Below, piece by piece: positions 1,508 through 32,829 of a DNA stretch of 39,758 bases. The first letter of the stretch is position 1. Each line of letters begins with the position of its first letter. The translations under genes were made by a program, and so were the position numbers. The notes beneath the pieces are model-generated. The model was not told where the DNA came from. It did no database searches and was given only the letters and a program-made list of their open reading frames with translations. Origin of the DNA: Anaerolineae bacterium (GTDB lineage: Bacteria; Chloroflexota; Anaerolineae; Anaerolineales; Villigracilaceae); contig JASJYH010000014.1 in the NCBI GenBank assembly GCA_030123675.1, forward strand, positions 1 to 39,758, written 5' to 3'.

Positions 1508-1737
1508 AGCGCATGATCCCATCCCCTTCAGGGCTGGGATGACGAGGACGAGGGTTCTTCATCGCAAGATGGAGCTAACCCCGTAACCTAATAAGCACAA
1601 TTAAAGGTCACGGGCAAAAATCGAATGATCAGCGGAAGCCCTCCGGGTGAGCCACACCCGATCACCTTTCCCTCCGAGAATAATCTTTGCCACAAGGCCG
1701 GGATGGTAACATCCCGGACAAAATGCAAAGCATGGCA
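1508..1737 (+). ncRNA. glmS self-cleaving ribozyme (GlcN6P-responsive)
   Basis: The core elements of the glmS ribozyme are present in order. AGCGC at 1508-1512 carries the scissile A1508|G1509. P1 is ATCCCA (1516-1521) with TGGGAT (1535-1540), directly followed by the invariant GACGAGG (1541-1547). P2 is GAGGG (1550-1554) with CCCTC (1639-1643). The conserved ATCGAAT starts at 1620 and GCGGA at 1632. P3 is CGGGTG (1644-1649) with CACCCG (1655-1660). P4 is CTTTGC (1685-1690) with GCAAAG (1725-1730), enclosing P4.1, CCGGGATG/CATCCCGG capped by GTAA. Members of the family cleave their mRNA when bound to glucosamine-6-phosphate and so repress glmS. A 63-nt insert at 1557-1619 is unlike the Bacillus and Thermoanaerobacter forms. 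A second cleavage-like motif, GCGCCTGA at 1480-1487, lacks a matching P1. Confidence 0.9.
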
Positions 1738-1859
1738 ATAAGAGAATAGAGCTTAGAGAGTAGAACGAACAGAGCAGGAAATCGAGAATAAGATTCTTTC
1801 TGTCACTAATCATCTAAGCTTTATTTATCGAATCACTAGATTTCGGAGGATCCCTAACA

Positions 1860-3701
1860 ATGTGTGGAATCGTCGGATATATCGGCCCGCGGGATGCGAC
1901 GCCGATTATCCTGAATGGACTTAAACGGTTGGAATACCGCGGCTACGACTCGGCTGGATTGGCTGTAATAAACGGCAACAAGATCGAGGTCCGGCGTGAT
2001 GCGGGCAAGCTTAATAGCCTGACCGAGTTGGTAAAGAAATCCCCTCTTACAGGTGCGCCTGGTATCGGGCATACACGCTGGGCTACTCATGGCGAGCCGT
2101 CTGGGCGAAATGCTCATCCGCATATGGGCGCATCTGGTCGGGTGGTGGTTGTCCACAATGGCATCGTTGAAAATTTTCTCGACCTAAAAAACGAATTAAT
2201 AGCCGAAGGAATCGAGTTTAAATCTGATACAGATACCGAAACGATCGTGCATTTGGTTGAGCATCATCAAGCTGTCGGCTTAGATCTGACTGAGGCAGCC
2301 CGTCAAACGTTTAACAAAATTCAAGGGGCGCATGGGATTGTGTTGATGTCGGCAGACGAGCCGGATAAAATTGTGTGCGCAAGGATAGGAAATGCCGGCG
2401 GTGTGGTTATCGGGCTTGGCAAAGATGAGAATTACATCGCCTCTGATATCCCCGCTATTTTAGAACACACACGGGATGTTATTTTTCTTGAATCGCACCA
2501 GCTGGCCGTGATTACACGCAATACGGTACATATTGAAACGCTCGATGGCCAGGCCGTGACTCCGGAGATACACAGCATCTCCTGGGACGCTGTTTCTGCA
2601 GAAAAAGGCGAATACCGTCATTTTATGCAGAAGGAAATCCACGAACAAGTCAGAGCTATCACCGATACTCTGGCCGGGCGCGTGGATTTTAGTAAAAGCC
2701 GAATTCGTCTGCCCGAGCTCAAGCTCACCCCCGAGATAGCGAAACGCATCCAGCGAATTTATATAACAGCTTGCGGTACTGCTGCCTATGCTGGAATGGT
2801 TGGAAAAATATTAATTGAGAAAATTGCGCGGGTGCCCGTTGAGGTAGTAATTGGCTCTGAGTTTCGTTATAGCGACCCGATTGTGGATGAGAACACTGTC
2901 GTTCTGGCAATTTCACAATCTGGCGAAACCGCCGATACCTTAGCCGCCATGGAAGAAGGACGTAAAAAGGGCGCACTAATTTGGAGCATTGTCAATGCCA
3001 TCGGCTCGGAGGCTATGCGCATTTCGGATGGATATATCTCAATGCAAACTGGGCCCGAGATCGGAGTGGCTTCAACCAAAGCATTTACCGCCCCACTTGT
3101 GGATCAATACATGTTAGCGATTTTGCTGGCCGATTTAAGGGGCACGCTTGACGATGAGGCCCGCAAATCTCTTGTCGCCGACTTAAGGCTAATTCCGGAC
3201 CTAGTCAGCCGCACCCTTAACAGCGAACCGGAAATCGAAAAAGTAGCACTTGTTCTAAAGGATATTCAGCATTGCCTTTATTTAGGGCGCGGCATCAATA
3301 TGCCCATCGCTTACGAGGGCGCCCTAAAATTAAAGGAAATATCCTACATCCATGCCGAAGGCTATCCGGCGGGTGAGATGAAACACGGTCCAATTGCCTT
3401 GATCGATGAAGAGATGCCAATATTTTGTATAGCGCCGAAAGACCCCTGGCACGAGAAGATGGTTTCACAGATCCAACAAGCCAAGGCTCGCGGAGGCCAG
3501 GTAATAGCTATTGCGACCGAAGGTGATGAGTTGGTCCAAGGGTTAGCCGACCAAATATTATGGGTCCCAGATACACCTTGGATGTTGAGCCCGGTTGTAA
3601 CTGTTATCCCGCTTCAATTGCTAGCCTACCATATTGCGGCCTTGCGCGGTTTGGATGTGGACCAACCTAGAAACTTAGCAAAGAGTGTAACTGTTGAGTA
3701 A
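1860..3701 (+). CDS. glmS: Glutamine--fructose-6-phosphate aminotransferase (isomerizing), GlmS
   Basis: This 613-residue protein has the normal family length. It makes glucosamine-6-phosphate from fructose-6-phosphate and glutamine, the first committed step toward UDP-GlcNAc for the cell wall. The start MCGIVGYIG supplies the N-terminal nucleophile Cys after Met removal, followed by the Ntn glutaminase domain (about 1-230). Two SIS isomerase domains follow, at about 290-430 and 465-600. SQSGETADT and GVASTKAFT lie in the first, and the protein ends in the typical DQPRNLAKSVTVE tail. The start is fixed by the MCGIVG consensus and by GGAGGA at 1845-1850, nine bases upstream. It is the direct target of the ribozyme at 1508-1737. 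Confidence 0.98.
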   Translation: MCGIVGYIGPRDATPIILNGLKRLEYRGYDSAGLAVINGNKIEVRRDAGKLNSLTELVKKSPLTGAPGIGHTRWATHGEPSGRNAHPHMGASGRVVVVHNGIVENFLDLKNELIAEGIEFKSDTDTETIVHLVEHHQAVGLDLTEAARQTFNKIQGAHGIVLMSADEPDKIVCARIGNAGGVVIGLGKDENYIASDIPAILEHTRDVIFLESHQLAVITRNTVHIETLDGQAVTPEIHSISWDAVSAEKGEYRHFMQKEIHEQVRAITDTLAGRVDFSKSRIRLPELKLTPEIAKRIQRIYITACGTAAYAGMVGKILIEKIARVPVEVVIGSEFRYSDPIVDENTVVLAISQSGETADTLAAMEEGRKKGALIWSIVNAIGSEAMRISDGYISMQTGPEIGVASTKAFTAPLVDQYMLAILLADLRGTLDDEARKSLVADLRLIPDLVSRTLNSEPEIEKVALVLKDIQHCLYLGRGINMPIAYEGALKLKEISYIHAEGYPAGEMKHGPIALIDEEMPIFCIAPKDPWHEKMVSQIQQAKARGGQVIAIATEGDELVQGLADQILWVPDTPWMLSPVVTVIPLQLLAYHIAALRGLDVDQPRNLAKSVTVE

Positions 3702-5264: not shown

Positions 5265-5933
5265 TTAATTGCCCGTTGAGGCCATCCAACTTAAAATTGG
5301 GTGATATTTCGGTTCTGCGATGACAAAGAGCCGGCCCCAATTAATATTTCCTTCGGCCTCAATACAAGTTTGAAATGTCACATGCCTATCCCCACTATAC
5401 ACTTTGCGAAACACATCTTGGGCTGTTGTAATAATATCAGTGTCTAAATCTCGAAAATCACTATGGACACTGGATGGCTGAAGAGCTTGGTATTGCAGTA
5501 TCTGCTTGACAATAAAATACTCAACTCCTCCATCCCCAAATATAATTCGAACCTCATCCCCACGTTTCATGCCGGCATAATGGCTACCAGCCAAATAATT
5601 ATGCGCCAGTAGTCCGATAATACCAGCTTCTTTTGCCATCCCAAATTGAGTTATTGACTCTGGGTCCCGAGATACGAATCCAGGCTCATCCCATGGTTGC
5701 TGGACAACTGCCAAAGCCAGCAAACCAGGTACATAGACACCTCGCAGATCATCCGGGTTTCCATTTTGTACATTTTTGATAAAACTTGAAAAATCAGGCT
5801 GATCCTTATTCGCGATCCCCTCTGCCAAGGCTGGATTGAGCACAATGAATAACGAAAGGATGATAATACCAATAAAAACAATTAGGATAATTAACTTACT
5901 TGATAATGATATTTTTGCGGGTGCCATTGTCAT
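5265..5933 (-). CDS. Membrane-anchored sortase-like protein under c-di-GMP riboswitch control
   Basis: From the ATG at 5933 the protein has 222 residues. A single N-terminal hydrophobic segment (about 13-35) is followed by an extracytoplasmic domain. This domain has the sortase His-Cys-Arg layout: LLAHNYLAG (His111), FQTCIEAEG (Cys190) and NWGRLFVIA (Arg201). Sortases are transpeptidases that attach or polymerise surface proteins at a sorting signal. The spacing and lack of extra domains are closest to small class E/F-like forms, but the class is uncertain. The open frame extends upstream to a TTG at 6005. I chose ATG 5933 because the upstream part reads into the riboswitch leader and is not signal-like. 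The next in-frame ATG at 5927 is equally possible. No obvious LPXTG-type substrate is in the window. Confidence 0.75.
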   Translation of the reverse strand: MTMAPAKISLSSKLIILIVFIGIIILSLFIVLNPALAEGIANKDQPDFSSFIKNVQNGNPDDLRGVYVPGLLALAVVQQPWDEPGFVSRDPESITQFGMAKEAGIIGLLAHNYLAGSHYAGMKRGDEVRIIFGDGGVEYFIVKQILQYQALQPSSVHSDFRDLDTDIITTAQDVFRKVYSGDRHVTFQTCIEAEGNINWGRLFVIAEPKYHPILSWMASTGN

Positions 5934-6009
5934 TGCATCCAAATTGACAAGGGCGCCAAATAACTCCCCTTTCCGACCAAAATAAATTTGGCAGAGAGTA
6001 AACAAGCAT

Positions 6010-6106
6010 CACGTCTTCGGCAGTCTGGCTATCTTGGTCATGTTTGGCATGACTTTAGACCCATGACTTTGCGTTCCCGTCTTTCAACGGGTTTGCCCTT
6101 ATCGAA
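6010..6106 (-). promoter_or_regulatory. Cyclic-di-GMP-I (GEMM-I) riboswitch
   Basis: Read on the minus strand, the leader shows the GEMM-I consensus in order. GGGCAAACC comes first, then a stem CCCGT/ACGGG (plus-strand 6076-6080 and 6087-6091) capped by the GAAA tetraloop. ACGCAAAG, then GGGTCTAA, follow. Next is a hairpin GTCATG/CATGAC (6037-6042 with 6048-6053), and finally AGATAGCC and CTGCCGA. These are the ligand-pocket and tetraloop-receptor elements of this class. It lies about 80 nt ahead of the sortase-like start. No strong intrinsic terminator is visible between it and the gene, so control of translation is a reasonable guess. The direction of regulation is not evident. Confidence 0.92.
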
Positions 6107-6120
6107 CGAATTAATTTTAG

Positions 6121-31185: not shown

Positions 31186-32829
31186 TTAAGCCTTACTCAA
31201 GGTTACAAAAACCATCGGTCTGCGTTTGGTCTCATTGTATAAAAATGATTTAACGGCACTGGCAATATCTTTATCAGCGTCTAACCCGCCACCATTAACT
31301 AAATCCATTATTCTTTTTTTCACTTCTGGAAGCAATTCATTTGCATCCTCAGGAGAGAGAAATCCGCGGGTTAATATCTCTGGTTCTCCGAGCAAACGAC
31401 CGGAGTATTTATCTACATTTAAATCAACTAGAAATATACCATTTTGCGATAATTTCTCACGCTCACGCATGACCCCAGGATCGATATCGCCAATACTTTG
31501 ACCATCAACAAAGACATACCCGCCAGGGATTCGTTCTCCATTCTTAAGTTTTCCGGATACGAACTCTATCACCTGGCCATTCTCAACAACTAAGATATTC
31601 TCGTTAGGAATTCCTAATTGAGTGGCCAAATACGCGTGCCGTTTTAATTGACGCAATTCACCATGAATAGGGATGAAATTTTTGGGTTTGAGAATATTTA
31701 TCAGAAGTTTTTGTTCTTCCTGGCTGGCATGCCCCGAAACATGGATCGGTGCAATTGCATCATAGATTACATTTGCGCCTCTGCGGATCAAACTATTAAT
31801 CGCACGGCTTACACTTTCTTCATTTCCCGGGATAGGGTGAGAGGATAAAACCACGGTGTCACCCGGCTTCAGGTCGAAGGTCCGATTAGTCCCAGTCGAC
31901 AAGCGTCCAATAATCGATGAGGGCTCGCCTTGCGACCCAGTACACATCAGCACAACCTGTCTTTTATCAAGGTTTAGGGCTTGTTCTATTGGAACGATTA
32001 TTTTTTCTGGTATGTTTAGGTAGCCCAGGCGACGTGCGATCTTGGCATTGTCCACCATACTTCTGCCCACAAACGCTAACTTACGCTTGTGGCGTGCTGC
32101 GGCATCCGCAACTTGTTGCATTCGTGAAATCAATGACGCGAACGAAGCTATGATAATTCGGCCTGAAGCAGACTCAAACACATCATCCAGTGCCGGACCG
32201 ATGATCATCTCTGAAGGCGTCCAACCGGGTCGCTCGGAATTTGTAGAATCTGACAACAACAAATCTACGCCACGATTAGAAAACTCAGCCAACTTGGCAA
32301 AATCTGTTGGCCAACCGTCGACGGGGGTATGATCAAATTTGAAGTCACTCATATGGACGATCAGACCGGCAGGCGTTGTGATACCAAGGCCAACAGCATC
32401 TGGGATCGAATGGCAAACATGGAAGAATTCGATTTTGAAGGCCCCCAAATTGATACTTTGGCCTGCTTCCACTGTATGGAGGGAGGCTTTACTCAGGACC
32501 TTATTCCGTTTCAACTTCCCTTCGATCAATCCCCGGGTCAAAGGAGTTGCATAAATTGGTGCAGGGATATCCTCGATTACATGTCGGATTGCACCGATAT
32601 GGTCTTCATGTCCATGCGTGATGACAATCCCAACCACGCGATCAACTTTGTCCAATAGATATTGGTAGTCAGGGATGATGTAATCAATCCCCAACATGTC
32701 ATTTTCAGGAAACATGATGCCGGCGTCAACGATCAAAATATTTTTGCCGTATTCATAGGCTATCATGTTTTTTCCGACTTCCCCTAAACCACCCAAGGGG
32801 ATTATTCTTAGTTTTTTATTCTTACTCAT
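31186..32829 (-). CDS. rnj: Ribonuclease J
   Basis: This 547-residue protein is a beta-CASP metallo-beta-lactamase nuclease. IIPLGGLGEVGKNM at the N-terminus and the metal motif THGHEDHIG (about 74-82) are typical. HMSDFKFDHTP, then CTGSQGEPSS, and HVSGHASQEEQ complete the MBL and beta-CASP set. RNase J processes and degrades mRNA and rRNA with both endo- and 5'-3' exonuclease activity. The C-terminal domain is of normal length. Its own promoter lies at 33003-33031, and an attenuator-like leader separates it from the start. Confidence 0.96.
   Translation of the reverse strand: MSKNKKLRIIPLGGLGEVGKNMIAYEYGKNILIVDAGIMFPENDMLGIDYIIPDYQYLLDKVDRVVGIVITHGHEDHIGAIRHVIEDIPAPIYATPLTRGLIEGKLKRNKVLSKASLHTVEAGQSINLGAFKIEFFHVCHSIPDAVGLGITTPAGLIVHMSDFKFDHTPVDGWPTDFAKLAEFSNRGVDLLLSDSTNSERPGWTPSEMIIGPALDDVFESASGRIIIASFASLISRMQQVADAAARHKRKLAFVGRSMVDNAKIARRLGYLNIPEKIIVPIEQALNLDKRQVVLMCTGSQGEPSSIIGRLSTGTNRTFDLKPGDTVVLSSHPIPGNEESVSRAINSLIRRGANVIYDAIAPIHVSGHASQEEQKLLINILKPKNFIPIHGELRQLKRHAYLATQLGIPNENILVVENGQVIEFVSGKLKNGERIPGGYVFVDGQSIGDIDPGVMREREKLSQNGIFLVDLNVDKYSGRLLGEPEILTRGFLSPEDANELLPEVKKRIMDLVNGGGLDADKDIASAVKSFLYNETKRRPMVFVTLSKA

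Follow-up and report, generated by a model that had tools for sequence, protein, structure and literature searches.

The sequence identifies the leader of glmS in the analyzed window (the whole stretch of 39,758 nucleotides) as a glmS self-cleaving ribozyme, predicted to be activated by glucosamine-6-phosphate (GlcN6P) and to cut at 1508/1509. It very probably represents a Chloroflexota subtype in which two hairpins replace the joining segment J2/2.1, the first of them would stabilize the core, and the cut would remove a Shine–Dalgarno (SD)-like stabilizer. Support for this explanation comes from the family match, the gene context, the covariation of the insert, the conservation of the catalytic motifs, the position of the SD-like element and the presence of RNase J. 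The ribozyme class itself is known, and the insert form of Chloroflexota is classed here as a variant of the glmS ribozyme.

Positions 1497–1741 of the forward strand match the covariance model RF00234 with 49.6 bits (E 1e-8), against a gathering score of 37; the match spans the whole model, but a long segment separating the P2 strands stays unaligned. The glmS ORF (1860–3701, +), encoding a glutamine-fructose-6-phosphate transaminase of 613 aa, starts 119 nt past the end of this match, which places the ribozyme in the 5′ leader of glmS. The ribosome-binding site of the gene is GGAGG at 1845–1849 (+); of 182 related loci, 166 have an SD-like site in front of glmS. Membership in RF00234 is supported by the score above the gathering threshold, the position in the glmS leader, the core motifs, the double pseudoknot and the P3/P4 domain. 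The RF00234 alignment places the predicted cleavage site A↓G at A(−1), 1508, and G1, 1509, and the core motifs ACGAGG, UCGA and GCGGA are all present.

Both pseudoknots are kept. In P2.1, CGA (1543–1545) pairs with UCG (1621–1623); these three pairs, as well as GCGGA, are invariant in an alignment of 37 relatives. P2.2, placed by the RF00234 alignment, brings together C2, G3 and C4, followed by A5 (1510–1513), and G54, C55 and G56, preceded by A53 (1631–1634). P1 forms a hairpin at 1516–1540, likewise seen in the sequence and the alignment, and P2 pairs GAGGG (1550–1554) with CCCUC (1639–1643). The P3/P4 support domain comprises the P3 hairpin CGGGUG/CACCCG (1644–1660), read from the sequence inside the RF00234 match, and P4 (1684–1730), aligned to RF00234, with an A-rich internal loop and a GNRA tetraloop L4, GUAA at 1706–1709. 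A preliminary description of this DNA had proposed a glmS ribozyme with all core elements and had named the RF00234 model as the check; the match in front of glmS bears the proposal out, and the coordinates given there for both inserted hairpins, GGGTT, AACCC, GCGCA, CAGCGG and the cleavage site are correct. Elsewhere in the window, a c-di-GMP-I riboswitch (6016–6107, −; 82 bits) lies just upstream of a sortase-like ORF (5265–6005, −), and the ORF at 131–1384 is TadG-like, both names being taken from the translations alone.

The insert occupies J2/2.1, the linker between P2 and P2.1, which is canonically 2–4 nt long and is filled here by 1557–1615. In the canonical core, these 2–4 nt connect the 5′ strand of P2 with UCG, which is the second P2.1 strand and helps to form the cofactor pocket (PMC7125110). 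Of 237 distinct cores, almost all of them chloroflexotal, 25 have a linker of 2–4 nt and 212 one of at least 22 nt, with no lengths in between. All fetched relatives with a readable core share one insert plan, consisting of GGUU, hairpin 1, YYAA, hairpin 2 and GAAAAUCGA. In the window, a near-invariant UU (1555–1556) opens the insert junction, followed by hairpin 1 with 7 bp and a GCAA loop of the GNRA type (CTTCATC-GCAA-GATGGAG, 1557–1574), by CUAA as the conserved YYAA (1575–1578), by hairpin 2 (1580–1614), and by a conserved A-run leading into the P2.1 strand UCG (1616–1623). The strands of hairpin 2, CCCGTAACC and GGTCACGGG, pair 1580–1588 with 1606–1614 and contain one A–C mismatch. With the insert joined in this order, the active fold would retain P1, P2, P2.1, P2.2, P3 and P4, and P2 would become a multi-helix junction.

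Covariation among the 37 relatives supports both hairpins. Compensatory changes were found in all seven pairs of hairpin 1, in all six outer pairs of hairpin 2 and in three of the five pairs of P2, the top two of which are fixed as G–C. Paired cells amount to 97.2% versus 73.2% in shuffles, and none of 500 shuffles scored as high. The preliminary description had suggested that an insert with two hairpins sets this RNA apart from known Gram-positive forms and had called for an alignment of relatives; both hairpins lie where it placed them, and both covary.

The two hairpins differ in constancy. Hairpin 1 was found in 208 of the 212 insert-bearing cores, including two relatives without hairpin 2, and the shortest inserts, of 22 and 24 nt (L160 and L027), consist of hairpin 1 only. 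Its loops (n = 208 relatives) belong to the GNRA type in 129 cases, to GNRG in 24 and to UNRC in 10, a preference that suggests a tertiary contact; no receptor for the loop was identified. Hairpin 1 with its GNRA-type loop would most likely stabilize the core by stacking or tertiary contact. Hairpin 2, whose length ranges from zero to more than 100 nt among relatives, behaves as a tolerant spacer, and this is the role it would have in the active fold. In several relatives it is filled by dispersed palindromes, TTTCGATACG...ACTCAACC, present in 6–30 copies per genome; the same repeats also occupy the P1 helix in a single glnA-linked copy, as though the hairpins served as landing sites (loci with these repeats: G105:C21:258, G113:C58:96811, G144:C22:195616 and G136:C1:2003268). 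Taken to its end, the variable length of hairpin 2 and its filling by dispersed repeats could mean that the whole insert is a decayed mobile palindrome, neutral and without a role. We consider this very unlikely given hairpin 1, which persists in nearly all insert-bearing cores, even where hairpin 2 is missing, covaries in every pair and keeps GNRA-type loops. Counted against the subtype explanation is the bulk that the insert adds beside a core sensitive to misfolding.

The preliminary description had further raised a second folded state, in which GGGTT (1552–1556) pairs with AACCC (1577–1581) at the expense of P2. With pseudoknots left out, the window sequence folds at −23.8 kcal/mol with P2 and both hairpins and at −18.2 kcal/mol in the alternative form, with hairpin 2 shortened and P2 absent, and both states are populated (P2 about 0.4–0.6, alternative about 0.13–0.5). 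In truncated transcripts, the alternative is near-complete before hairpin 2 is finished and common until the 3′ strand of P2 has been made, after which it falls. Since it dominates only before this strand exists, the competing helix is a plausible and, by this modeling, likely folding intermediate. In 32 of 37 sequences GG and YY are able to pair, a pyrimidine bias is limited to the two nucleotides following YYAA, and the GG at the top of P2 is fixed only in insert-bearing forms; this bias and the fixed GG keep a weaker version of the competing fold alive. Against a second, regulated fold that disrupts P2 stand the outer pair of the competing helix, broken in 23 of 37 relatives, its GG pairs, which show no two-sided change among the same 37, and its extension by at least five pairs, seen in 50 of 208 relatives versus 46.5 when the 3′ parts were swapped at random. 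The native P2, moreover, covaries, and the P2.1 and P2.2 pseudoknots would favor it further. Energy calculations, co-transcriptional truncation, covariation and partner swapping gave nothing beyond compatibility, and such a regulated fold is unlikely: the second state holds as sequence-compatible and energetically possible, but not as a conserved feature.

Co-occurring changes in the P2.2 region had been listed there as well. GCGCA (1509–1513) and CAGCGG (1630–1635), in place of GCGCC and CGGCGG, are indeed present, the pairs C2–G56, G3–C55 and C4–G54 are kept, and the fourth pair, C5–G53, is replaced by A5/A53. A coupling of these changes to the insert was dismissed, as all four combinations exist, C5–G53 or A5/A53, each with or without the insert. 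Since A5/A53 is seen without the insert and the insert with C5–G53, the two changes are separate, and this distribution makes A5/A53 a lineage trait distinct from the insert. Position 6 is mostly U where A53 is present, so that a U6–A53 pair may form with A5 bulged. The replacement of C5–G53 could lower activity, which speaks against an active ribozyme. One might go further and propose that the RNA no longer cleaves and serves only as a structured leader, pointing to the missing C5–G53 pair and to the low RF00234 scores in the subtype. Those low scores go along with the insert, however, and hundreds of genomes retain the A↓GCG site together with the motifs ACGAGG, UCG and GCGGA, which makes the loss of cleavage highly improbable.

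The insert-bearing form is widespread in the window's family. Of the 152 genomes examined from this family, RF00234 detects the ribozyme in 80; R1, a covariance model built on the insert-bearing segment, detects it in 138, among them 84 of the 88 good genomes. Close to half of the ribozyme copies in the family escape RF00234. R1 also gave strong matches in three more families outside the class (f70, f71 and f107), which belong to further classes of the phylum, and in other Chloroflexota families the ribozyme is present without the insert. A scan of named genomes with the pattern AAATCGANNNNTCAGCGGAWGCC listed at least 80 loci, all with the insert and almost all labelled Anaerolineae, Anaerolineales, Caldilineaceae, Ardenticatenaceae or Chloroflexi. 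Three insert-bearing copies (L116, L142 and L162) come from assemblies that carry the labels Spirochaetaceae, Paludibacter and Actinomycetes; binning or naming may have gone wrong here, or the copies may reflect transfer. Conservation of the insert in relatives, on which the preliminary description had made its reading depend, extends to the family genomes detected by R1 and to many other Chloroflexota. By this distribution, the insert marks an undercatalogued subtype of glmS ribozyme common to a large bacterial group, the Chloroflexota.

Upstream of the ribozyme, an SD-like element without a start codon, AGGAGG (1475–1480, +), lies 28 nt 5′ of the cleavage site and 23 nt after TATAAT (1446–1451, +), which was read from the sequence as the likely −10 element of the glmS transcript. 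Of 182 insert-bearing relatives, 108 have TATAAT, in most cases 15–25 nt before the SD-like motif, and a scan for consensus −35/−10 promoters and terminators found nothing. The transcription start is placed solely by TATAAT, on which the term 5′-proximal depends. Among the 182 insert-bearing loci, 124 have an SD-like motif (GGAGG or AAGGAG) 20–45 nt 5′ of the cleavage site, and the other 58 lack it in this interval; beyond 60 nt upstream, only 0–4 fall into each bin. The stretch from −62 to −8 contains the motif in 139 loci versus 17 in shuffles, the loci being related by descent and their counts representing non-independent events.

An SD-like motif could simply be the start of a leader peptide, and an ATG does follow 3–11 nt downstream in 13 of 141 cases, 11 of these ORFs having four codons or fewer (e.g., ATG-TAG). 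Start codons are not enriched after the motif, however (9% versus about 14.5% expected by chance), no reading frame is fixed in the spacing between motif and ribozyme, and the window itself has no ATG after AGGAGG; with neither enrichment nor frame, the leader-peptide reading was rejected as distinctly unlikely. Start–stop mini-ORFs such as ATG-TAG were noticed near the SD-like motif in some relatives. In sequence and position, the element resembles a STAB-SD, being a 5′-proximal SD-like sequence without a start codon. In Bacilli, a 5′-proximal SD without a start codon stabilizes mRNA, and in B. subtilis RNase J1 degrades the cleaved glmS mRNA (PMC3997798). An RNase J-type ribonuclease is encoded in the same window (31198–32808, −; TIGR00649, 583 bits) and is the likely degrader of the cleaved mRNA. 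In the uncut RNA, the 5′-proximal SD-like element would bind 30S subunits and protect the 5′ end. At high GlcN6P, self-cleavage is predicted between 1508 and 1509, which would detach the element from the mRNA and, by the precedent of B. subtilis, leave a 5′-OH end for RNase J. STAB-SD leaders such as cryIIIA likewise have a 5′-proximal SD that lacks an initiation codon, and their host also has RNase J (PMC3997798 and its reference 106). Unlike in those leaders, the putative stabilizer here stands in front of a self-cleaving ribozyme, by which it would be removed. The SD-like motif offers a testable reason why cutting at the 5′ end destabilizes the mRNA.

Descriptions of glmS ribozymes present them as uniform and nearly always tied to glmS. 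The Chloroflexota subtype shares with the RF00234 members of Bacillota, Fusobacteriota and non-insert Chloroflexota the position before glmS, the A↓GCG site, P1, P2, P2.1, P2.2, P3, P4, the core motifs and the GNRA loop L4. It differs from RF00234 forms in the two hairpins that stand in for the 2–4-nt linker and in A5/A53, and from three Bacillota/Fusobacteriota controls, in which no SD-like motif was seen by eye, in its upstream SD-like element. The glmS ribozyme variants of Deinococcus-Thermus reportedly carry additional stems in the catalytic core, as surveyed by McCown, Roth and Breaker in RNA in 2011, and the same survey is said to have counted only two ribozymes outside glmS mRNAs. Extra stems in the core would be a trait shared with the present case; if they sit in the same linker, the architecture would not be new, only its distribution and details. 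Among the matches listed for Deinococcus glmS in plasmid records, none was full-length, and among the papers searched none dealt with glmS ribozymes in Anaerolineae. Two covarying hairpins in the core provide a natural test of how far a ribozyme tolerates growth near its active site.

Many genomes contain a second R1 match, and 20 regions with second or related R1 matches were fetched. Copies with the site A↓GCG(G/A)CUG are followed by glutamine synthetase in 26 loci and by glmS in none, and those with GCGC(A/C) by glmS in over 160 loci, a single one being followed by glnA instead; the Pfam domains Gln-synt_N and Gln-synt_C confirm the assignment of the downstream glutamine synthetase. This ribozyme precedes glnA directly or as the head of an operon; within the family of the window, the two can be separated by an Ada/AraC-like gene and an EamA transporter. 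All glnA-linked copies have C5, U6 and G7 together with A53, which allows C5–G54 and U6–A53 to pair while the position-4 purine bulges out. Their hairpin 1 has 6 bp, all of which covary. The RF00234 cut-off is reached in two of seven glnA-linked regions scanned, a third scoring 35 bits. No glnA-linked copy was found in the window's own genome, which has a single R1 match below E 0.08, and a literature search, judged from titles and abstracts, returned no ribozyme before glnA.

The glnA-linked loci include L297, L301, L311, L312, L314:430 and L315; L314 has one copy of the glnA type and one of the glmS type, separated by 2 kb. In two genomes, a 6S RNA directly precedes the glnA-linked ribozyme (L297:74–249 and L301:3777–3954, −). 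The leader sequence ACAACUGAAUA recurs before the cleavage site (L092, L167, L303 and L309, also L174 and L194), in glnA-linked and in some glmS-linked copies.

We tentatively hypothesize, giving it slightly less than an even chance, that the insert-bearing subfamily of Chloroflexota comprises a glmS branch and a glnA branch, the latter with A↓GCG(G/A)CUG and the P2.2 bulge shifted from 6 to 4. GlcN6P or a changed ligand would then cut the glnA mRNA, and in the glmS branch the cut would remove a ribosome-binding stabilizer. The glnA-linked subtype would represent a new regulatory target for the glmS ribozyme class and, if the hypothesis is true, cutting of glnA would tie nitrogen assimilation to amino-sugar supply in these bacteria.
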